IMG/VR virus record: IMGVR_UViG_3300017991_000026
Span: 1-45,295 of that record
From: a virus
Direction: 5' to 3' (one strand)
DNA: 45,295 nt
The notes beneath the pieces are model-generated. The model searched no databases. It saw only the letters and a program-made list of their open reading frames with translations, and had not been told where the DNA came from. The stretch's first letter is position 1, and each line of letters opens with the position of its first letter. Shown one piece after another: positions 18,078 to 28,123 of this stretch. Position numbers and translations under genes: made by a program.

Positions 18078-21000
18078 TTACTGTTTAATCCGAAGGGCGG
18101 CTTTGAGAGGATCTTCTCCTTTCTCTTCCGCCCTTATCACTTTATTAGTCGTAGATCCTGCAGGCTGGCCTAAAGCCGTTCCAAGCAACTCATACCATCT
18201 CTCATAAGTATATCTCTCAAATCCCTTATCAACTACGTTTTCTACAAAGTCCCATCCTGCCCCAAGTAAAGATGAATCAAATCTTGCATTAGTCAGAAGA
18301 GGAATAGAAGTCAATTCCATAAACTCTCCTAAAATCTTTATATAATTCCAATCATCTTCACTCCACTGTCTCTTGATTTCTCCTACTGGGTTCCCAACTG
18401 GTGAAGATTGTCCAAGCACATCTTCGAAAAACCATCCGACCATAGAAAGTGTAGTCATAAGAGAACCGAACTTTAACACCCTTCTCATCTGACGATTATT
18501 AAGTCGAGTAATTTCCGGCGCCTTCCCGTGAAGTTCTAAAATATCCTTAGCAATAAAATTCCAGTTCCCGATTACAAATGTTCCCATATTAGTAACAAAT
18601 CGTCCTAACGCATGTTGCTGAATCGGTGATCGACTTAATTTGGTCGGGCCAACTTGTGTGCGTTCTACAATATCATCAGCATATTGGTGAATTCTTTCAT
18701 CACTCCAATTTAACTTTCCCTTCTTCCTCATTGTCTTAGCTTCTGATACTGCTGCATGCCAGGTAATATTCCTTGAAGCAAAATCAGAGGACTTGATCAA
18801 GATATTTAGAACTTGACTCGGTACTATCTTTGCGACTCTATAGATCCCTTTAGTCCCTGCCCATATCTTAGCCAATCTACTTGCATTCGGAATAGTGTAA
18901 AAACTTCCAGCTGTAAGATCCAGAAGTTCTCCACCTACAGATCCATGCCAGGTCTTAAACAATACCTCTGATTTATTAATAGCTTCTGGCATTCCATTTT
19001 TCTTTAGTGCTTTAGCTAAATCTCCTATAGATTTAAACCCTCCCTTAAGTGTGTTAATAGGTCCAACTGCAAACACTGTATTGATCAATGCTAAGGGCTG
19101 AATCTCCGCAGTTCTTGGATTTCCACTGAGATGATAATTAGCAATATTGCTTCTTAGCCCGTCAATATACTCCATGTATTCTGCCATTGGAGCTGTCATA
19201 TCAGTAACGCCGGTAATATCATTAACTAATTTATCCAGTGCTTTCTTAACTCCACTCCTCTGATCTTCCATCTTCCAGATCTTGCCAGTATTTGGATCTC
19301 TAAATTCCTGAGTCTCCTTGATCCACGAAATAACCGGAGTCCAATTAATTGATCTATTAACTGACTGCATATAATTTCTTGCGGCTCTAAACGGATCTAT
19401 ATCCAACGCGGGAATAGCCCCCTTCTTTCTCATGTTCTCGAATCTGGAATGCATCATTTTCGGAGATACCATATTGGGAATATCTTTAGTTAATTTCCCA
19501 TTATTAAACTCCATCATAACATCCGATCCCATCTGACGCATTAGTTCAGCATTGGTAAAGAATGTGGCATAATTCTCAACCTCTGGAATTGGTTCATGCC
19601 CGCTATTAATGAGAGATTCATTCCACTCAGTTAATTTTCTTTTATAAAATTCCCTCAACTTTGTATATGCCTGCTGAGCACTCTTACTTAAATGTTCGAA
19701 CTTAGTCGGTATATCTTTAAACCCGAGCGCAGTTAAGATAGTTACTCCTCTTTCCTGAGCAGCAGCAGCATACTTTCCCAACTGTTTTCGATTATAATTC
19801 CTGGACAATATCTTCCCAGTTCTCGGGTCCATTCGATTTTTCTTACCATAAATTGTAGTAGCTTCTTCTCCACTAAGAGTTCTAATCTTAGTCTCAACTG
19901 CTCCCTTCTGTAAATCGTTTCTGATTTTCCTTAATTCCAATTCGTCAGCCTTATTCATTCTAATTTCTTTATTCTCAGCACTGACCCCTTTTCTCCAAAC
20001 TTCGAATCCAAAATCTCCCAGGCGATCCATAGTATGAATCCGCGTCTCAAGGTGTGAAGTCGCAGTTTTGCCCCTAACTGCTTTCTCCATAAACTTAGGA
20101 GTGTTTCTTTGTTTAGCACCCAGAGTTTTACGCAAAGAAAAATACGAAGGATCTTTGGCTTTCATAATATTTCTAATCGTACCTGCTTCAACAATGGGAG
20201 ATTTGAGAGTAATCTTTTGACCATTAACTTCAACTTCTTTCTCCCATACTTTTCCTATTTCTCCCTCATTAAAAGTAAATTTCTTTTTTTGTTCAGTCTC
20301 CCTTATTTTCTGTGTCTCTTCTGCTACATTCTCAGCTGCTTTCTTCACTGCTGCTCGAGAAACTTTAGCATCAACCTTTCCGAATTCTTTTCGATAAGCG
20401 TTAATCAGTTTTAATTTCTCACTGTCCTTCATCCGCCCAGACATTTTCACGAGATCTTCAAACTTCATCCCTCGAGATTTGGCCAGCTCCTCTAATTTCC
20501 TGACCATCTCCACGTTCCCAAAATTAACCCCAAAGGTATTAGGATCAGCCTTCAAGAGCTTTCCAAACTCTCTCAACTTCGGACTAAGAATATCCATAAA
20601 CTTATCCAGAGGAATTCCAGAATATAACATCGTGGGATTAGCACCAGCCTTCTCGGCTTTTGTCATTTTATCTAATGTCTCCCATGGTGGAATTTTTCTG
20701 ATAGCCTCATCGCTTATGCTCATTCTATGCTCAAAGAGTCTAGCTTCCATTTCTCCAGGATTACGTAAATAAATACTCTCAGCCCCGGTAGGAAACTTTA
20801 ACAAATTTATATCAGATTTAGATAATCCTAATTGATTTTTGTTTCCTTCCATCCATGGAATTAATTCCTTAAGCGCAAATTCTGGATCTACAAATAAACG
20901 ACTTGACCCAGCGTTAGATATTCCAGCCTTTATTTCATCAGCAAACTCCTTATCTTTTATCTTTGGCAATAATTTATCAAGTCTATTAGCTATTACACTT

Positions 21001-23354
21001 CCAGACTCGTTCTCAATAGAGGTTCCCCCAAATGCACCAACTCTTCTATTTATATTATGCTGAAGTTCATGTGACAATGTTCTGACATAGTCCATTTCGG
21101 TACCGCGTAATGGTAGACCTATTGTGTCAGTCGGCTTATCATAATATGGAATCTCGTCAGTGAACTTAACATTAGTATTCCTCAATTCTGGCAATGCTTC
21201 ATATAATTGAGGATATTTTAAAACCTCTTCTAATTTTGCATTCCTTTTTTCACGACGCTGAATATCTTTAAGTTTCTTAAGATCAAACTCAAACTTAGAA
21301 GGACTGATCTCATACCTCCATTTGCCATCTCTTCCAAGCCAAAATCCAGTTTCTTTCCAGAGTTTTTTATTCCTAAATGCCTTTTCAGGATCTAATCCTC
21401 TAAGTCCTATCCATTTCTTAACCGTTTCAGGAATCTTATCTAGAGGAATTCCAGAATATAACTGCGTAATCCCACTAACATCAGTTCCCTTCGCTCTCTC
21501 CTGCATCCCCTGCATGATCTCACTCCACGCAGCGACTTCTTCAGGCTTCAATCTCTCAATAGGTTTTCCACCCTGGGTACTCTCAGACTCTACCCATTTA
21601 TCTAAGTAACTTTTCCTATTCCTCCCTAATTCCTCAACATGATCTACCAGGGCAGAAAGAACTGAAGCCTCCTCAGGCAACACATCGAAGCGTAATTTTG
21701 GATCGTCATTTTCCTTAATATAATCTCTTAACTTCTTAGCCGTGAGTTTTGGATTATCCCTAACCACATCCAGCAATCCATCTTCTTCTGCCAATCGATA
21801 GAGATTCTCCAGATAATTTTGCATTTCCTCGGGATATTCACTTAATCGCTCTCTGACTCCAACCCTTCCGGTAGGTTCAACGGGCTCTCCTGATCCAAGA
21901 GCCTCTTCAAACTCTCTTCCTGTTTCTTCAGCCAGTTTTCTCTCTCCGGCTTCGATAACTCGTTCAACCTCGGGGAGACTCTCTTGGCCAACTTCCTGTC
22001 GAGTTCTGACTGGCTCAGGTTCAACTGGCCGAGTCGGTTCTGTAATCGGAGTTTCTTCCGGTCGAGTAGCTTCTGTCTCATTCTTCACCTCTCTTCTGCC
22101 AAGAGCTTCTTCATAAGCCATTCTTAATCGCTCATCAGGCCGGCCAAATGTCTGTTGTTCTCTCCCAGATAAAAACTCTGCTCCTTCTCTCGCTCGACCT
22201 AACTCAACATTTCTAATCGCCTGACCAGAATCAGTAGTAACCCTATCTCTTCCAAGAAACATTTTCGGTAGCGAGGAAGGATCTACTGGCTTTCCTTCTT
22301 TAACATCCAGAGACTTCCTAATGATATCCTTAACTGCTTCAAGTTTAAAGTTTGGATCCATGGATTGAAAGGCTCTGGACAATTTAATTCCATCCGGGCC
22401 GAGAGTACCCATAGCATTTGGGTCAGAGAATTCATCCATAAGATTAGAGATATCAGCATCGAAATCACCCTTATCAAGATTCTCCCTAAATTCTTCAGCT
22501 TTCTCCGCAGGCTTCTTTTCTTTAGGATCGAAAATCTTTCTCCATCCCTCAGCTATTTTACTATAAGTCTTCCCCTGTTTGAACTCATTTCCCTTAGAGT
22601 GAAGAAGTTTAAACGTAATCACATCAGCCCCATACCCAAGGGCCTGCCCAATATCCCTTCTCCCAATCTTAGCCCACGCATCTTCGATATAATGCCCGGG
22701 CAAAAGAGACATCACCGCGTTAACCGGCTTCATCATCAGTTCGGCAGTTTTGGTTTCGTAGGGTGCGACAGATTCATAGGTTGGCACAAGCGCTTCAGCC
22801 ACGCCGCTAGTAACTTCATCAATGGTCTTGGCTCGTTCTTCTGGAGTTCTATCTCTGGTCTCAATTCCTCTTCTCAAGTCAACAGCCCCTAAAAATCCAG
22901 GGGGAGCTATACGAGGATCAATTCCCCACTTAGCCCATATAGACTGAAGAAGCTCCTCTTGGCCTTTGGGCTTAACAGGCACCGAGCTAAAACCTTCAAT
23001 AAGACCTAAAGGCTTTCCGAACGCAAATTCAGCCGTCCCTCCGGCCATCTTCGTAGCAAACTCCGGCATTCCGCCAGCCAAGTTCCTCAACAGCTCTTCG
23101 TCAACTCCGCTTGGCCCAACCTTTCCAGACCCAAAGTTCTTCGACGCCCAATCGCTAATCGGCTGAGCGATCTTCTCCATAGGCCCTTCAATAAAGTCTG
23201 GAATCCAAGTATCATTCTTCGGCTTCCAGAAAGAATCTCCCTCTACCAAAGCCTGTTCCTGTTGCTGATCTACAAATCCCCAGTCCACTTTAGAGTTTTG
23301 TAAATTAGAATTCTGATTTTCAGGCTCAAGCATTCCCCAATCAACTTTGGCCAT
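18078..23354 (-). CDS. Giant polyvalent internal/ejection protein with metallopeptidase motif, 1758 aa
   Basis: The largest gene of the window ends the virion transcript. The N terminus has two VDWG repeats. Residues about 390-530 are Glu/Pro/Arg-rich and disordered. LYSGIPLDK appears near 630 and again near 908, a linker seen in phage 'polyvalent' proteins. HELQH near 760-765 lies in a region like the polyvalent metallopeptidase. A long Lys-rich coiled part follows. The last 400 residues contain hydrophobic helices and resemble the LPD38-type domain at the end of such proteins. It is likely packed in the head and ejected into the cell. Confidence 0.78.
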   Translation of the reverse strand: MAKVDWGMLEPENQNSNLQNSKVDWGFVDQQQEQALVEGDSFWKPKNDTWIPDFIEGPMEKIAQPISDWASKNFGSGKVGPSGVDEELLRNLAGGMPEFATKMAGGTAEFAFGKPLGLIEGFSSVPVKPKGQEELLQSIWAKWGIDPRIAPPGFLGAVDLRRGIETRDRTPEERAKTIDEVTSGVAEALVPTYESVAPYETKTAELMMKPVNAVMSLLPGHYIEDAWAKIGRRDIGQALGYGADVITFKLLHSKGNEFKQGKTYSKIAEGWRKIFDPKEKKPAEKAEEFRENLDKGDFDADISNLMDEFSDPNAMGTLGPDGIKLSRAFQSMDPNFKLEAVKDIIRKSLDVKEGKPVDPSSLPKMFLGRDRVTTDSGQAIRNVELGRAREGAEFLSGREQQTFGRPDERLRMAYEEALGRREVKNETEATRPEETPITEPTRPVEPEPVRTRQEVGQESLPEVERVIEAGERKLAEETGREFEEALGSGEPVEPTGRVGVRERLSEYPEEMQNYLENLYRLAEEDGLLDVVRDNPKLTAKKLRDYIKENDDPKLRFDVLPEEASVLSALVDHVEELGRNRKSYLDKWVESESTQGGKPIERLKPEEVAAWSEIMQGMQERAKGTDVSGITQLYSGIPLDKIPETVKKWIGLRGLDPEKAFRNKKLWKETGFWLGRDGKWRYEISPSKFEFDLKKLKDIQRREKRNAKLEEVLKYPQLYEALPELRNTNVKFTDEIPYYDKPTDTIGLPLRGTEMDYVRTLSHELQHNINRRVGAFGGTSIENESGSVIANRLDKLLPKIKDKEFADEIKAGISNAGSSRLFVDPEFALKELIPWMEGNKNQLGLSKSDINLLKFPTGAESIYLRNPGEMEARLFEHRMSISDEAIRKIPPWETLDKMTKAEKAGANPTMLYSGIPLDKFMDILSPKLREFGKLLKADPNTFGVNFGNVEMVRKLEELAKSRGMKFEDLVKMSGRMKDSEKLKLINAYRKEFGKVDAKVSRAAVKKAAENVAEETQKIRETEQKKKFTFNEGEIGKVWEKEVEVNGQKITLKSPIVEAGTIRNIMKAKDPSYFSLRKTLGAKQRNTPKFMEKAVRGKTATSHLETRIHTMDRLGDFGFEVWRKGVSAENKEIRMNKADELELRKIRNDLQKGAVETKIRTLSGEEATTIYGKKNRMDPRTGKILSRNYNRKQLGKYAAAAQERGVTILTALGFKDIPTKFEHLSKSAQQAYTKLREFYKRKLTEWNESLINSGHEPIPEVENYATFFTNAELMRQMGSDVMMEFNNGKLTKDIPNMVSPKMMHSRFENMRKKGAIPALDIDPFRAARNYMQSVNRSINWTPVISWIKETQEFRDPNTGKIWKMEDQRSGVKKALDKLVNDITGVTDMTAPMAEYMEYIDGLRSNIANYHLSGNPRTAEIQPLALINTVFAVGPINTLKGGFKSIGDLAKALKKNGMPEAINKSEVLFKTWHGSVGGELLDLTAGSFYTIPNASRLAKIWAGTKGIYRVAKIVPSQVLNILIKSSDFASRNITWHAAVSEAKTMRKKGKLNWSDERIHQYADDIVERTQVGPTKLSRSPIQQHALGRFVTNMGTFVIGNWNFIAKDILELHGKAPEITRLNNRQMRRVLKFGSLMTTLSMVGWFFEDVLGQSSPVGNPVGEIKRQWSEDDWNYIKILGEFMELTSIPLLTNARFDSSLLGAGWDFVENVVDKGFERYTYERWYELLGTALGQPAGSTTNKVIRAEEKGEDPLKAALRIKQ

Positions 23355-23355
23355 C

Positions 23356-24132
23356 TTAGTATCCTTCCATCACTTTATTGATGTACTCTCTATTGGCAGT
23401 AAGTGTATCCATTGCTTCCTTCTTAGAAAATCCTCGACGAATCATCTCGTCATAGATAGCTCTAACATCAAGCTTTTGACCTTTTTGGTACATAACGGGA
23501 AGAGTTATATCTTTATCTCTACCCCAATTGTTAATAAATCTCAGCCTAAATGGTACAGCTTGAAGTCCTTCGTCAGCCGCATACCTGTTGAAAAGATCTA
23601 TTTCAGATGTAGTTGGCTCACGATAGTCTCCCTCTTCGTCCGATGTCATCTTTTGGAATCGATCATTAATCTCTACTGGAAGTTCTGTAATCCACTGGTT
23701 CTTTAGGCTTCCGTCCTCTTCTTTTCCACCTTTCGCTTTCTGGATTTCCCGATTAGCATAATCCAGATACTGCTTCGTTGTAACCTTTAAGGTTTTCTTA
23801 GGATCAAGCGGATCAGGAATTTCCATATACTGATTACCACGTTTCAGCATCTTATCTGCCAGATTGCGGCTCTTGATAAGAGAGTTATAATTTGCCATCT
23901 GCACAGAGTCCATCTCCTCAACTGCAGTCTGTTTTCTCTGATCGAGCTTGAACTTTCTCTTATCCATCTGGCGCTCATACTGCTGCTCTTCAGCTGCCTT
24001 CTGCGCCGCAGCTTTCTGCGCTTCCATTGTTCTCCGTCGCTCATCCAACCAAGTTTGAATCTCTGTACCATAATCAATATTTCTGGAGAACACATCATTA
24101 ATCTGCATTATCTCCTGCGGGCTTAGCCCCAC
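23356..24132 (-). CDS. Coiled-coil virion protein, C-terminal part of a probable frameshift product, 258 aa
   Basis: Residues about 25-90 are Gln/Lys/Arg/Ala-rich coiled coil; the rest is mixed. The only starts are a GTG at 24132 and an ATG at 24108. The open frame continues upstream through PQGPALGSYFNPQDL to a slippery site at 24186-24192, where a -1 shift would join it to the 24183-24725 product (fusion 456 aa). The sequence around the GTG reads as continuous protein (QDLVGLSPQEI), so the fusion may be the main form. It lies between ejection-protein genes. Confidence 0.75.
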   Translation of the reverse strand: MGLSPQEIMQINDVFSRNIDYGTEIQTWLDERRRTMEAQKAAAQKAAEEQQYERQMDKRKFKLDQRKQTAVEEMDSVQMANYNSLIKSRNLADKMLKRGNQYMEIPDPLDPKKTLKVTTKQYLDYANREIQKAKGGKEEDGSLKNQWITELPVEINDRFQKMTSDEEGDYREPTTSEIDLFNRYAADEGLQAVPFRLRFINNWGRDKDITLPVMYQKGQKLDVRAIYDEMIRRGFSKKEAMDTLTANREYINKVMEGY

Positions 24133-24192
24133 AAGGTCCTGGGGATTAAAGTAACTTCCCAGGGCTGGCCCCTGTGGGGAATCTAGAAAGGG
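24127..24192 (-). promoter_or_regulatory. Candidate programmed -1 frameshift signal
   Basis: On the minus strand the heptamer C CCT TTC (24192-24186) fits X XXY YYZ in the zero frame and directly precedes the TAG stop. Both tRNAs can re-pair after slipping (CCU to CCC, UUC to UUU). A 6-nt spacer leads to a stem: CCCCACAGGG (24179-24170) with CCTTGTGGGG (24136-24127), 10 bp with one G-U, stacked on CCTGGG/CCCAGG (24163-24158 with 24143-24138). The -1 frame runs straight into the downstream gene. Confidence 0.75.
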
Positions 24193-24725
24193 TAGGTTCT
24201 GTAATTCTCCCCGCCAGTCAACATGTTACCGAGAGCCGGTGTCTGCTGGACTCTGGGCATCTGCATCGACGTGGGTTGAGGATATCCTCCACCAGCTCCT
24301 CCACCAGCTCCTTCGCTCTGTGCTTCTCCCATCACACTCTTTGGGTCCACAGTAGTTTTAACATTCATCAGATAATTTCCAGTCTTAGGATCACGAGACA
24401 CAGAAAAGTTAGTCGGTCCTTCTGCACCTTGATCGCCTAATCCAGAAAGCAACTGGGCCATAAGAGATTGCTTCTGCTCATTCGCCTGAGCTGCCGCCTG
24501 TGCAGCAATTCTCGATTTACTCCAATCAGCACTCCAGTTTCCAACTCCAGTCTGCCACTGTTTAGGATCATTTGCCACTAAAGCGCTTCCAAGCTGCCCA
24601 AGCATCATAGGCCCTTGTGGTCTCCCCAACCAATCATTAAGAGAAGTCATCCAATTTCCCGCAGTCTGCGGATTGCCTCCCTGAGGGGGATAGTTAATTG
24701 CAAAATCTTCCATATTATAAGCCAT
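24183..24725 (-). CDS. Virion-associated protein, N-terminal part of a probable frameshift product, 180 aa
   Basis: GAAAGGAG precedes the ATG. It is Gln/Ala/Gly-rich, with a helical part (about 60-95), a short beta section, a Gly-rich linker (GAGGGAGGG) near 140 and a final PALGNMLTGGENYRTYPF. It ends at a TAG immediately after a slippery heptamer. Low-complexity composition and neighbours indicate an internal or ejection protein. The 0-frame product and the 456-aa fusion would share this part. Confidence 0.75.
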   Translation of the reverse strand: MAYNMEDFAINYPPQGGNPQTAGNWMTSLNDWLGRPQGPMMLGQLGSALVANDPKQWQTGVGNWSADWSKSRIAAQAAAQANEQKQSLMAQLLSGLGDQGAEGPTNFSVSRDPKTGNYLMNVKTTVDPKSVMGEAQSEGAGGGAGGGYPQPTSMQMPRVQQTPALGNMLTGGENYRTYPF

Positions 24726-24742: not shown

Positions 24743-25858
24743 TTAATTAGCTGATAAATACCCGCCAACTCCGCCAACTACAGCTCCAATAACTCCACCA
24801 ATTAGAGGCCCATAACCACCAGCTCCGCTTCCAATCTGTGCTCCAGCAGATGCTCCGGTCATCACTCCAGAAGCAACACTTGCAGTAGTACTTGGAGTAT
24901 ACCCACTTTGATATGATGTCCCGCCGCTAATAGCTGCAATCATATTAGCACCATATTGATACACATCAAATAACCATCGAGTTTCAAGATCATCAAATCT
25001 AAGTTGCTTGTCTATCTCTTCTACTTTAGCTTGAATGGCTATACGTCGAGCCTCAATAGTATAATGCGTCACCAGCCTTTGCCACTCAGCTCGACTGAGC
25101 ATAGCACTAAACATTGTCTTAGCCGCGTCCATAATTAATTGATTACGAGTAACTTCCAGATCAAAATTGATCTTATCTCGATGCTCAGCATTGCCCATTT
25201 GAAGCTCATCATCTAATCTGTGAGCTTCCCCCACTTGAGTATTCCTCGTCAACTCATCAGTAGCTCTAATCTGGTCGGCCTGCAGATAAGCCTTAAACCT
25301 GAGGTCTGCGTGAAACTGGGCAATATCCCGATTGTTAAACCCTTCCAGTACTGCCTGTCCAATAACAAAAGACGAAGTCAGACAAGCGTTGGCATTCAAC
25401 ATCCCAGCTTGAAAACGTGGTAAAACTGTAGTAGTTAATCGATCATCCTGAATAGCTTCAAAGGCAGCAGCATCAGCTGCAATAGCAGTATCTGCAGCTG
25501 GATTAGGCTGACGCCAATATGTATCAATGTCATCGTAAGCATCAGGAGCGTAATCGTTGAAAGTAAAAGCCCGCCCAATATCCGCATCGTAACGGGTGAC
25601 TGCGTGGCTAAGATACGTTGTCCAATCCGCATCAGGATCAATAGCATCAACCGCTGCATTCAACGCGCATACTGAGTCCCACATATCCTGGAGCCAGTCA
25701 TCTGGATCGAAAGCAATAATTCCTTCATATGGATTAGGAGTTGTACCAAGATAAGCTGCTCCGACTAGATTATCAATTTCATCAAGCCATTCCTCATGCT
25801 GGCCCTGCAAATATGCAGGATACTCTACTGCTCCAGTACTTCCACCTCCGCCACTCAT
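24743..25858 (-). CDS. Internal virion/ejection protein with glycine-zipper tail, 371 aa
   Basis: The N-terminal half is acidic and Ala/Asp-rich; the middle is helical with repeated Gln and Arg. The last about 50 residues (GAGGYGPLIGGVIGAVVGG and flanks) form a glycine-zipper hydrophobic segment able to insert in membranes. This is typical of podoviral ejection proteins that help build a channel into the cell. The start overlaps the stop of the GNAT-like gene by one base. Confidence 0.72.
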   Translation of the reverse strand: MSGGGGSTGAVEYPAYLQGQHEEWLDEIDNLVGAAYLGTTPNPYEGIIAFDPDDWLQDMWDSVCALNAAVDAIDPDADWTTYLSHAVTRYDADIGRAFTFNDYAPDAYDDIDTYWRQPNPAADTAIAADAAAFEAIQDDRLTTTVLPRFQAGMLNANACLTSSFVIGQAVLEGFNNRDIAQFHADLRFKAYLQADQIRATDELTRNTQVGEAHRLDDELQMGNAEHRDKINFDLEVTRNQLIMDAAKTMFSAMLSRAEWQRLVTHYTIEARRIAIQAKVEEIDKQLRFDDLETRWLFDVYQYGANMIAAISGGTSYQSGYTPSTTASVASGVMTGASAGAQIGSGAGGYGPLIGGVIGAVVGGVGGYLSAN

Positions 25859-26280
25859 TATGCTATCTCCTTCACAATAAAAGATTTATTATGAAAACCA
25901 AACCTCTTACCTAAATTGACCACTAATGGTTCGTCAGTATAAGCAACTATTTTCTGACACTTCATACCCTTGGCAAAATTTTGGATTCCAGTAAATCCTT
26001 CCGCCCATGAATTTTTACTAATCTTATTAAATGCCCTAAGCCCATAGATAATCAAACTCTTCTGATTAACTATCTCATCAAAAGCAAAGGAGGTAATTAT
26101 TACTGCTTCAAATTTACCAGAACTTTTCTCGTAGCTGGAGAAGACATGCATTATTTCTGATATCATAAGTTGTAGAATCTTTATATCTCTAACCTCATCT
26201 TCTCCTAATAGCTCATCTATTACAATTTTTATGAGCGGCCAATTATCAGAAATCTGATCCGGAGTTAATCTAAGAAGCAT
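25858..26280 (-). CDS. GNAT-like small virion-module protein, 140 aa
   Basis: The ATG at 26280 follows AGAGGG; the frame opens earlier at 26346 but only inside the previous gene. IVAYTDEPLVVNLGKRFGF near the C terminus matches the end of acetyltransferase-like (GNAT) proteins that podophages often encode between tail nozzle and ejection genes. The acetyl-CoA loop is not obvious, so it may be structural. It overlaps both neighbours. Confidence 0.62.
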   Translation of the reverse strand: MLLRLTPDQISDNWPLIKIVIDELLGEDEVRDIKILQLMISEIMHVFSSYEKSSGKFEAVIITSFAFDEIVNQKSLIIYGLRAFNKISKNSWAEGFTGIQNFAKGMKCQKIVAYTDEPLVVNLGKRFGFHNKSFIVKEIA

Positions 26281-27307
26281 TATACATCCCTCTAACTGCA
26301 CGTTTGTCTGGAAATTTAAATCTAAGATTGAGATAGTCCATTTCAAAATTAGTTAGATCGTTGCAGTGAACAGCCACTCGATATTCTTGGGAGCTAACTA
26401 CTGGAAACGCCATCCCCTCTGGATTACATGGGATAAAGGTAGACCGGGCAAAGGCATAATTGTGATCTAGATAATCTACCGCAACTGTCATATCACTCTG
26501 ACCTTTTCCGCCCACTTCAACTGCGGTTAGAGTCTTATATCCTCTTTGATTGGAGTCAACTACATCCGTCACCACTCGACCCTCATCGTCTCCAGTATCC
26601 TCGTAGAAGATTTTCTGAACTCCTGCTCTGTTGTAGATAACACCTGTCACTATCTGATCAATCTCACAAAGTCCCCAGCGGGTCATGAGATAACTCTTAG
26701 TCCCGTCGGAGATATAAAACTCCTGCTTTCTCCCGTCATAAACCACGGAGATCTGTGAAAGTGTCATAGACTCAAAGATCCACTGATAACCCTTTCTCTC
26801 AATCTGATAATCTGCCCCAATCATCCACATTACACCATCGTTGTCAATGATTAGATGTTGATTCTCATCTCCCCCAACTGCGCCTTTAAAGGGAATTCCC
26901 CAGTGGACAAGAGTTCTCTCTGAGTATGAAAAGGTTGGCTCTATAATCGGGGTAAGAAGCGAAACTCCGTTATTGGTATATGCCATCACACCATTACCCA
27001 ATTTCATTACCTTCCGAATTTCGCAATCTCCGTGGAGAAGATTTCTTGCTCCGGCTGTATTATCCTGATCAACTGTGAAGTCAGCATTTCCAATCTGACT
27101 CCAACGGACTATACAAGATCCCGTAAATCCATCATTATCTTCATAAACCCATCCGCCAACAATCTGGCCATTAAACATACAAGCCGTGTGCAGGATCGGA
27201 AGAGTAGTCGTAGCGTTCTCATAGTACGAATAAGAACCATCATATTCAACGATCCCATTCTCGGAGAAGAGTAGAAAATATTTCCCAAATAAAACTAAAT
27301 CCCACAT
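26270..27307 (-). CDS. Tail nozzle beta-propeller protein, 345 aa
   Basis: Short beta repeats (LVLFGKYFLLFSENGIVEYDG, VMAYTNNGVSLL, GVMWMIGAD, QEFYISDG) are the propeller blades of podoviral tail tube/nozzle proteins (T7 gp12-like). It starts at ATG 27307 only 6 nt after an in-frame TAA that ends the 27311-28123 gene. In related phages the two parts are normally one chain, so this looks like a split gene expressed by reinitiation (GGGG lies 7 nt before the ATG) or read-through. Confidence 0.75.
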   Translation of the reverse strand: MWDLVLFGKYFLLFSENGIVEYDGSYSYYENATTTLPILHTACMFNGQIVGGWVYEDNDGFTGSCIVRWSQIGNADFTVDQDNTAGARNLLHGDCEIRKVMKLGNGVMAYTNNGVSLLTPIIEPTFSYSERTLVHWGIPFKGAVGGDENQHLIIDNDGVMWMIGADYQIERKGYQWIFESMTLSQISVVYDGRKQEFYISDGTKSYLMTRWGLCEIDQIVTGVIYNRAGVQKIFYEDTGDDEGRVVTDVVDSNQRGYKTLTAVEVGGKGQSDMTVAVDYLDHNYAFARSTFIPCNPEGMAFPVVSSQEYRVAVHCNDLTNFEMDYLNLRFKFPDKRAVRGMYNAS

Positions 27308-27310
27308 GGT

Positions 27311-28123
27311 TTACCCCATTACATAGAGATAAAGAGTTAAAGTCGCATTAGCACCTGAAATCGTTACAGTGTCAGTTGCCGTAGGTCCATCAACTCCATT
27401 CCAATAATTGAGCTTTGCGGCATTGACTGTATATGTTCCGTTAGACAATCCGGTAAAGACGGCCTCTCCAAGAACATCCGTTGTGTCAGAACCTTCTCCA
27501 ATTACTTCTACAGTGACCCCACTTATTGGACTAGAATCATCACCATCAAGAACAGTTACGGTCAGAGAATATCCAGCCACCACCTGACGAAGTCCTATGG
27601 TCACTTCCCCATCAGCGCCGTTTATTACAAGAGTCCCAGATCCAGATTGGTATCCATCAGCAGTTACTCCAACTGGGTATGAATAAGTTTCCAATCCAGT
27701 AAATGCTACCGATCCATTGACTGCTGTATCATCGGATAAAGTCGCACCGGATAAAAGAGTAAGAGTAACTGTGGCCCCATTAATCTCCGCATTACCATCA
27801 TCAAGATCTACAACGTAGACAGTTCCGATATAAGTGTCTACACAGAAATTAAGCACAACATTTCCATCTTGGTCAATTATCGTACAATCTGTCACTCTTA
27901 TATGTGCATCGTCTCCACAACAAGGCTCGAGATTGAACAATTGCGGCTGCGGCCAGTCCATTGTTCCAGAGATCGAAGTTGCAACTGAATGTGGAACAAG
28001 CCCAGCCTCGGTAGGTTTAACATTGAAGCACTCAATCAACGCTTCAACTCCACGTACTGTTCTCCTATGCGGCCGAAGACCCTTTGCTAATCCCTCTCTG
28101 AACTGTGAATAAAATTCGCGCAT
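27311..28123 (-). CDS. N-terminal tail nozzle segment with two Ig/CarboxypepD_reg-like domains, 270 aa
   Basis: Residues 1-65 (EGLAKGLRPH, ALIECFNVKPTEAGLVPH, WPQPQLF) match the usual N terminus of propeller-type tail nozzle proteins. Two tandem beta-sandwich repeats follow (about 95-180 and 185-268), each with a GxxxFTGL turn, of the carboxypeptidase-regulatory/Ig-like kind, probably surface-exposed. It ends in TAA-ACC-ATG in the same frame as the propeller gene. Palindrome copy 9 abuts the start codon, and GGAG lies unusually far upstream. Confidence 0.72.
   Translation of the reverse strand: MREFYSQFREGLAKGLRPHRRTVRGVEALIECFNVKPTEAGLVPHSVATSISGTMDWPQPQLFNLEPCCGDDAHIRVTDCTIIDQDGNVVLNFCVDTYIGTVYVVDLDDGNAEINGATVTLTLLSGATLSDDTAVNGSVAFTGLETYSYPVGVTADGYQSGSGTLVINGADGEVTIGLRQVVAGYSLTVTVLDGDDSSPISGVTVEVIGEGSDTTDVLGEAVFTGLSNGTYTVNAAKLNYWNGVDGPTATDTVTISGANATLTLYLYVMG

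Follow-up and report, generated by a model that had tools for sequence, protein, structure and literature searches.

Known frameshift systems and the genomic setting

In Escherichia coli dnaX, the slippery heptamer A_AAA_AAG is accompanied by a stem, and a -1 slip gives a short form of the product. The phage cases in the consulted parts of a recoding review comprise tail chaperones and extensions of capsid or tail proteins (PMC5009743), and the terms 'ejection' and 'internal virion' are absent from those parts. The locus described here lies in a virus record of 45,295 bases (the window, by which we mean the whole stretch of DNA analysed). It resembles the lambda G/GT tail chaperone in that a late gene would give a short and a C-terminally extended form through a conserved -1 slip; tail chaperones are likewise kept among relatives with little sequence similarity, with the direction of the slip varying between phages (PMC5009743). 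In contrast to a tail chaperone, however, the gene belongs to a short-tailed, SU10-like phage and precedes a gene for a very large protein rather than a tape measure, and in relatives the same element also occurs where the zero frame encodes the long form. The extensions of T7/T3 gene 10, A2 and PSA (PMC5009743) are similar insofar as a fraction of a structural protein gains a C-terminal domain, but the window gene is neither a capsid nor a major tail gene, and its C domain is family-specific, not an Ig-like add-on, and forms part of one protein in uninterrupted homologues. The dnaX layout (long product in the zero frame, a heptamer with a downstream stem and a -1 stop a few codons on) was found in 25 relatives, though in another gene and with another heptamer; the window has the opposite layout, an extension.

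The late genes of the window, on the minus strand, match those of SU10-type podoviruses, in keeping with an earlier reading made without database searches (the sequence-only reading), which had called the phage podovirus-like. By Pfam profile, the major capsid protein matched SU10_MCP (6.7e-33), the portal SU10_portal (2e-13) and the adaptor SU10_adaptor (4.4e-8). The three final late genes encode, in order, a 371-aa protein (24743..25858, minus strand), the split gene and a 1758-aa protein (18078..23354, minus strand). The 371-aa protein is a candidate gp14-like ejection protein; it is predicted to be all-helical, with long helices and a glycine-rich stretch at the C-terminus, and displayed a weak Gly-zipper match below the cut-off, whilst a fold search with it returned nothing significant. 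The 1758-aa protein is a candidate gp16-like or polyvalent ejection protein on the basis of gene order and a match to the polyvalent-protein domain LPD23 that fell just under the curated cut-off (E 4.5e-6). Its counterpart in the cultured relative L026 carried a sub-threshold LPD38 match, and together these sub-threshold matches suggest a multi-domain protein injected with the DNA.

The ejection cassette of podoviruses runs from a small helical protein through a gp15-like protein to a very large protein (PMC8954989). The split gene occupies the slot between the gp14-like and gp16-like genes, neighbours recognized here by order and weak matches, and the cultured Vibrio phage VS-ABTNL-3 displays the same three-gene order, with the first gene annotated as a putative DNA injection protein. 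In order and gene size the arrangement resembles that of T7 gp15 and P22 gp20, where a small gp14-like gene comes first, then one whose product measures 431-471 aa in P22-like phages, and then a larger gene (PMC8954989). Unlike the order, neither sequence nor fold linked the window protein to T7 gp15 or P22 gp20: PHROG and Pfam searches with the split-gene protein gave no informative match, and the AlphaFold model of a single-gene relative was too poor for comparison with either protein. Proteins of the gp15 type diverge fast (PMC8954989). From gene order, the product of the split gene is most likely a gp15-like protein of the ejection core. The sequence-only reading had placed the gene in an internal or ejection-protein region; gene order fits that placement, but neither a sequence nor a fold match stands behind the word 'ejection'. 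The usual placement of a tail chaperone, directly upstream of the tape measure gene of a long-tailed phage, was not found, as the structural genes are of SU10 type and the next gene is that for the 1758-aa protein.

The sequence-only reading had also known of no described frameshift in such a region. The word 'frameshift' is absent from a review of ejection proteins (PMC8954989) and from the SU10 structure paper (PMC9509320). A full-text literature search for frameshifting in ejection proteins, internal virion proteins or DNA injection proteins returned no published case, and a looser search listed three papers that each use the word frameshift once; most subscription papers and bioRxiv lay outside its scope, and such absence is not proof. 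We regard the site as a probable case of canonical -1 frameshifting, new in its phage gene context and with an outcome that seems to have reversed repeatedly.

Several features of the neighbouring genes were also recorded. In many relatives, a conserved small gene (25858-26346, minus strand, in the window) separates the tail genes from the ejection-type genes, and the gene at its place in Roseobacter phage CRP-810 is annotated as a GNAT acetyltransferase. Two adjoining tail genes (27311-28123 and 26270-27307, minus strand) lie in the same frame with the junction GGG TAA ACC ATG (27299-27316). In L026 they form a single 453-aa gene, so the pair in the window represents either two genes or a stop open to readthrough.

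The element in the window

On the minus strand, the zero-frame gene of 180 aa (24183..24725), which constitutes the N domain by alignment with the N domains of relatives, ends in ...ACC TAC CCT TTC TAG. The slippery heptamer C_CCU_UUC (24186..24192) is read as CCU UUC in the zero frame and as CCC UUU in the -1 frame, and the TAG stop (24183..24185) stands directly behind it. A 6 nt spacer, TAGATT with the stop included (24180..24185), separates the heptamer from a putative stimulatory hairpin (24127..24179). The outer stem of the hairpin comprises 10 bp with one G-U pair (24179-24170 / 24136-24127), the inner stem 6 bp (24163-24158 / 24143-24138), and a 4-bp helix sits on top. From position 24186 the -1 frame reads LDSPQGPALGSYFNPQDL, then V(GTG)GLSPQE..., and stays open to a TAA at 23358-23356, giving a C-domain part of 276 codons plus TAA (23356..24186) and a fusion of 180 + 276 = 456 residues. 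The sequence-only reading thus described the site accurately: heptamer, adjoining stop, spacer and both stems are present, the additional 4-bp helix aside, and the translations agree with its read-through into the downstream frame, its 456-residue fusion and its 180-residue short form. The sole early start candidate of the -1 frame is a GTG (24130..24132) that falls inside a conserved motif and also inside the 3' stem arm.

The hairpin alone folds at -26.5 kcal/mol, and a stem at the required position scored z 3.6, a value reached by 0 of 200 shuffles. Folding of the whole 111-nt region was no better than that of shuffles (z -0.48), a comparison that is uninformative, as it takes no account of where the stem lies. 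No Rfam family matched the element. Heptamers of the form XXXYYYZ are common on this strand of the window (262, including 14 CCCTTTY), and conservation is therefore the decisive test.

We consider a programmed -1 ribosomal frameshift of extension type very probable at this element. From the arrangement we infer slippage, its rate, a role in ejection and a use for the ratio of products, as follows. Ribosomes translating the 180-codon gene would meet the hairpin while on CCU UUC, and a fraction would slip back onto CCC UUU. Those that do not slip would stop at UAG and release the 180-residue form, and those that slip would make the 456-residue fused protein, so that the N-terminal part would be common to both forms and the signal would fix their ratio. 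Short and full-length gp15-like subunits may be needed in unequal numbers in the ejection core. A conserved frameshift in the ejection slot suggests that the internal core, too, depends on a fixed ratio of two forms. Gene callers would report two unrelated hypothetical genes at such a site, and the full protein would accordingly be absent from annotation.

The site in diverged relatives

Direct searches with the N or C part of the window protein found nothing. Since these parts diverge too fast, relatives were reached first through the major capsid protein and, from there, by gene order: capsid-protein matches on hundreds of contigs were collected, the 371-aa gene, which is conserved at the same place in relatives and served as the anchor, was located by profile, and the genes that follow were read. 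Conservation in the alignment of the 371-aa protein was too low for a collection scan. The genome-contig matches were phage-like contigs in MAG bins, without usable host assignment. The first round yielded 27 loci with a 0-to-(-1) split, to which L004, cut at a contig end, adds one, alongside 27 single genes, 7 +1 arrangements, 3 pairs of genes in the same frame and 1 unresolved case. A start codon at or close to the stop makes most of the +1 and same-frame loci, as well as several -1 splits, look like ordinary gene pairs. Six splits with an ATG at or adjoining the stop (L085, L132, L140, L144, L157 and L171) were set aside as ordinary coupled genes. Microcystis phage Mel-JY34 was also rejected as a -1 split, as it carries an ATG at the stop behind AGAAGG and lacks a heptamer, indicating two cistrons.

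Among 92 loci reaching the site, 48 carry an in-phase slippery heptamer with the layout seen in the window. The C domain lies in the -1 frame in 23 of these, the window included (extension type), and in the zero frame in the other 25 (truncation type); slippage would lengthen the protein in the former and shorten it in the latter. Three extension elements that the automatic motif test failed to recognize (L004, L059 and L067) were carried over from the first round, and loci fetched after the pattern had been set contributed three more (L241, L242 and L295) together with 12 truncation elements. The signal is not universal, as a plain single gene or a pair of cistrons is found instead in some relatives, and none of the cultured relatives checked (L026 and L217-L221) carries the element, all being single genes or two cistrons.

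Nineteen of the 23 extension heptamers are CCCUUUY. In the -1 overlaps, in-phase X_XXY_YYZ heptamers occupied 21 of 408 codon positions, compared with 25 of 4021 upstream in the same genes, and CCCTTTN accounted for 17 of the 21 overlap heptamers versus 0 of the 25 upstream. The spacer measures 4-6 nt in 21 of the 23, and the stop directly follows the heptamer in L006, L008, L241 and L242 as well as in the window. DNA similarity among the split elements was detectable in one group of four only (L086, L088, L105 and L107), so they are not close copies of one another. Stronger -1 sites than CCCUUUY are known in E. coli, a species that may not be the host of this phage. Two further loci, L108 (17518-17614) and L126 (14414-14534), split the gene from 0 to -1 with no canonical X_XXY_YYZ heptamer and possibly use a non-canonical slip site. 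In L126 a CCCCGTC/GACGGGG repeat lies just behind the stop, and the motif is upstream of the first start codon.

For the test of stems, the best one with its start 4-9 nt downstream of the heptamer was scored against dinucleotide shuffles. The mean z was 2.83 for 20 extension elements versus 0.07 for 23 in-phase control heptamers elsewhere in the same genes; in the final totals it reached 2.95 for the 23 extension and 2.96 for the 25 truncation elements, with individually significant stems in 16 and 15, respectively. Stems begin mostly 4-6 nt downstream of the heptamer, and no clear simple stem was found behind the heptamers of L067, L105 and L107. Because choosing partners by pairing was to be avoided, a second test used two independent anchors, placing the 5' side by the heptamer and the 3' side by the G codon of the D-L-x-G-L-x-P-E motif. 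Pairing was 0.70-0.71 in two neighbouring registers, 0.47-0.54 in the adjacent two and 0.24-0.40 elsewhere. Compensatory changes were evident at fixed pairs across 46 elements of both types, in a count that permitted one choice between two registers per sequence: position 7 was C-G in 18 and G-C in 12; position 9 C-G in 33, T-A in 7 and A-T in 3; and position 10 A-T in 14, T-A in 8 and G-C in 7.

A profile of the fused protein aligned uninterrupted relatives end to end across the junction (E 1e-36 to 1e-22), spanning positions 17-410 of 414 in L061, 21-409 in L063 and 5-407 in L071. In 13 of the 23 extension elements, the conserved motif that heads the C domain begins before any ATG, GTG or TTG occurs in the corresponding frame, and no in-frame start codon therefore reaches the whole motif there. 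These observations bear on the possibility that the window holds two separate genes, the first ending at TAG and the second starting, through coupling or reinitiation, at the GTG at 24132. This GTG is preceded at a distance of a few bases by an AGGA, and L085, L157, L171, L151 and L055 truly have two cistrons at this place, with an ATG at or near the stop. Against this, the heptamer is absent from the two-cistron relatives, the heptamer and stem would be left without a role, fused single-gene homologues exist, and the motif precedes any start codon in those 13 split relatives with a heptamer. We regard two genes in the window as unlikely.

In favour of programmed -1 frameshifting, as proposed by the sequence-only reading, are the heptamer and stem of diverged relatives, the single-gene homologues and the motifs that no start codon reaches. 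The sequence hallmarks of a canonical -1 site were found, namely an in-phase heptamer, RNA structure within about 5-9 nt downstream, an open and homologous -1 frame, and conservation, albeit not universal. That reading had proposed looking in related phages for either a retained heptamer and stem or one continuous gene, and both occur. It had counted uninterrupted relatives with no heptamer against itself; uninterrupted relatives do exist, but 25 zero-frame loci keep the heptamer, most of them with a stem and with a -1 frame that stops early.

Truncation-type relatives and the capsid phylogeny

An in-phase heptamer is present in many of the uninterrupted genes as well, about 13-20 codons ahead of the motif, and the -1 frame there ends almost immediately. 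The -1 stop follows after 1-2 codons in 21 of the 25 truncation loci. In the first 11 it fell within 3 codons in all 11, against a background of 0.43, and the mean stem z was 3.88 compared with 0.21 in 44 control heptamers. A single clade supplies most of the truncation elements, which use AAACCCT and are less independent. Slippage at these loci would yield the short form, and a programmed frameshift to that end is a probable reading of their layout.

Alternatively, heptamer and stem may be by-products of protein motifs (PF or NP before D-L-x-G-L-x-P-E) and codon choice, with no slippage, an explanation that concerns chiefly the truncation type. In its favour, members of the large truncation clade are related and conserve the peptide N-P-S/F-S-S as such. 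However, background codon choice (third base A 0.28, AAC 0.30, CCT 0.60) would place AAACCCT at N-P in only ~5% of genes, the truncation-type stems reach the mean z given above, and the independent lineages L060 and L071 display the same layout with other heptamers. In many extension loci, moreover, the C domain can be read in no other way than by a shift of frame. The by-product explanation is accordingly improbable.

Transcriptional slippage yields products of this kind in some genes, such as Thermus dnaX on a run of 9 T (PMC5009743), but the runs in the present heptamers are short, and codon phase would be irrelevant to such a process, yet phase is kept (an earlier count in the overlaps gave 0, 7 and 17 heptamers for phases 0, 1 and 2, where 2 is the slippery phase); we consider it highly improbable. 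A sequencing or assembly error or a broken gene, with one base lost or gained in a truly continuous gene, is very unlikely at the window site: uninterrupted homologues do occur in relatives, but the same -1 shift, at the same place and with the same kind of heptamer, recurs in 23 independently assembled contigs, most of them without mutual DNA similarity around the element.

Extension and truncation types were intermingled in the capsid tree. The truncation locus L060 was sister to the extension loci L002 and L006 (support 100/99), L129 (truncation) was sister to L215 (extension; 99/94), and L071 (truncation) grouped with L068 (extension) and L063, a single gene with no element (100/100). With the element retained, the outcome seems to have changed direction at three or more places, a switch that the sequence-only reading could not have seen; horizontal transfer of ejection genes independently of the capsid gene could reduce that number. 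The two-product outcome seems to be what selection keeps. On balance, we favour a two-product scheme for the ejection core, kept across a deep clade by one RNA element, in which the frame of the C domain flipped repeatedly and other members have two genes or a plain gene. If the two-product reading is true, the ejection core would need short and full-length subunits at a set ratio. The repeated alternation of extension and truncation around one and the same RNA element would amount to a natural experiment in which two products are kept and the frame of the C-terminal part is not.

Two further irregularities were seen in the structural genes of relatives. In L010 (8063-8921), L014 (9176-10000) and L025 (10085-10893), inserts of ~0.8 kb split the major capsid gene near residues 31-33 or 55-57. 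Rfam revealed no known intron in these inserts, for which an intein, an unlisted intron or an insertion are possible explanations. A frame change in L017 (1032-1040), seen in that contig only, disrupts the portal gene and is probably a sequencing error.
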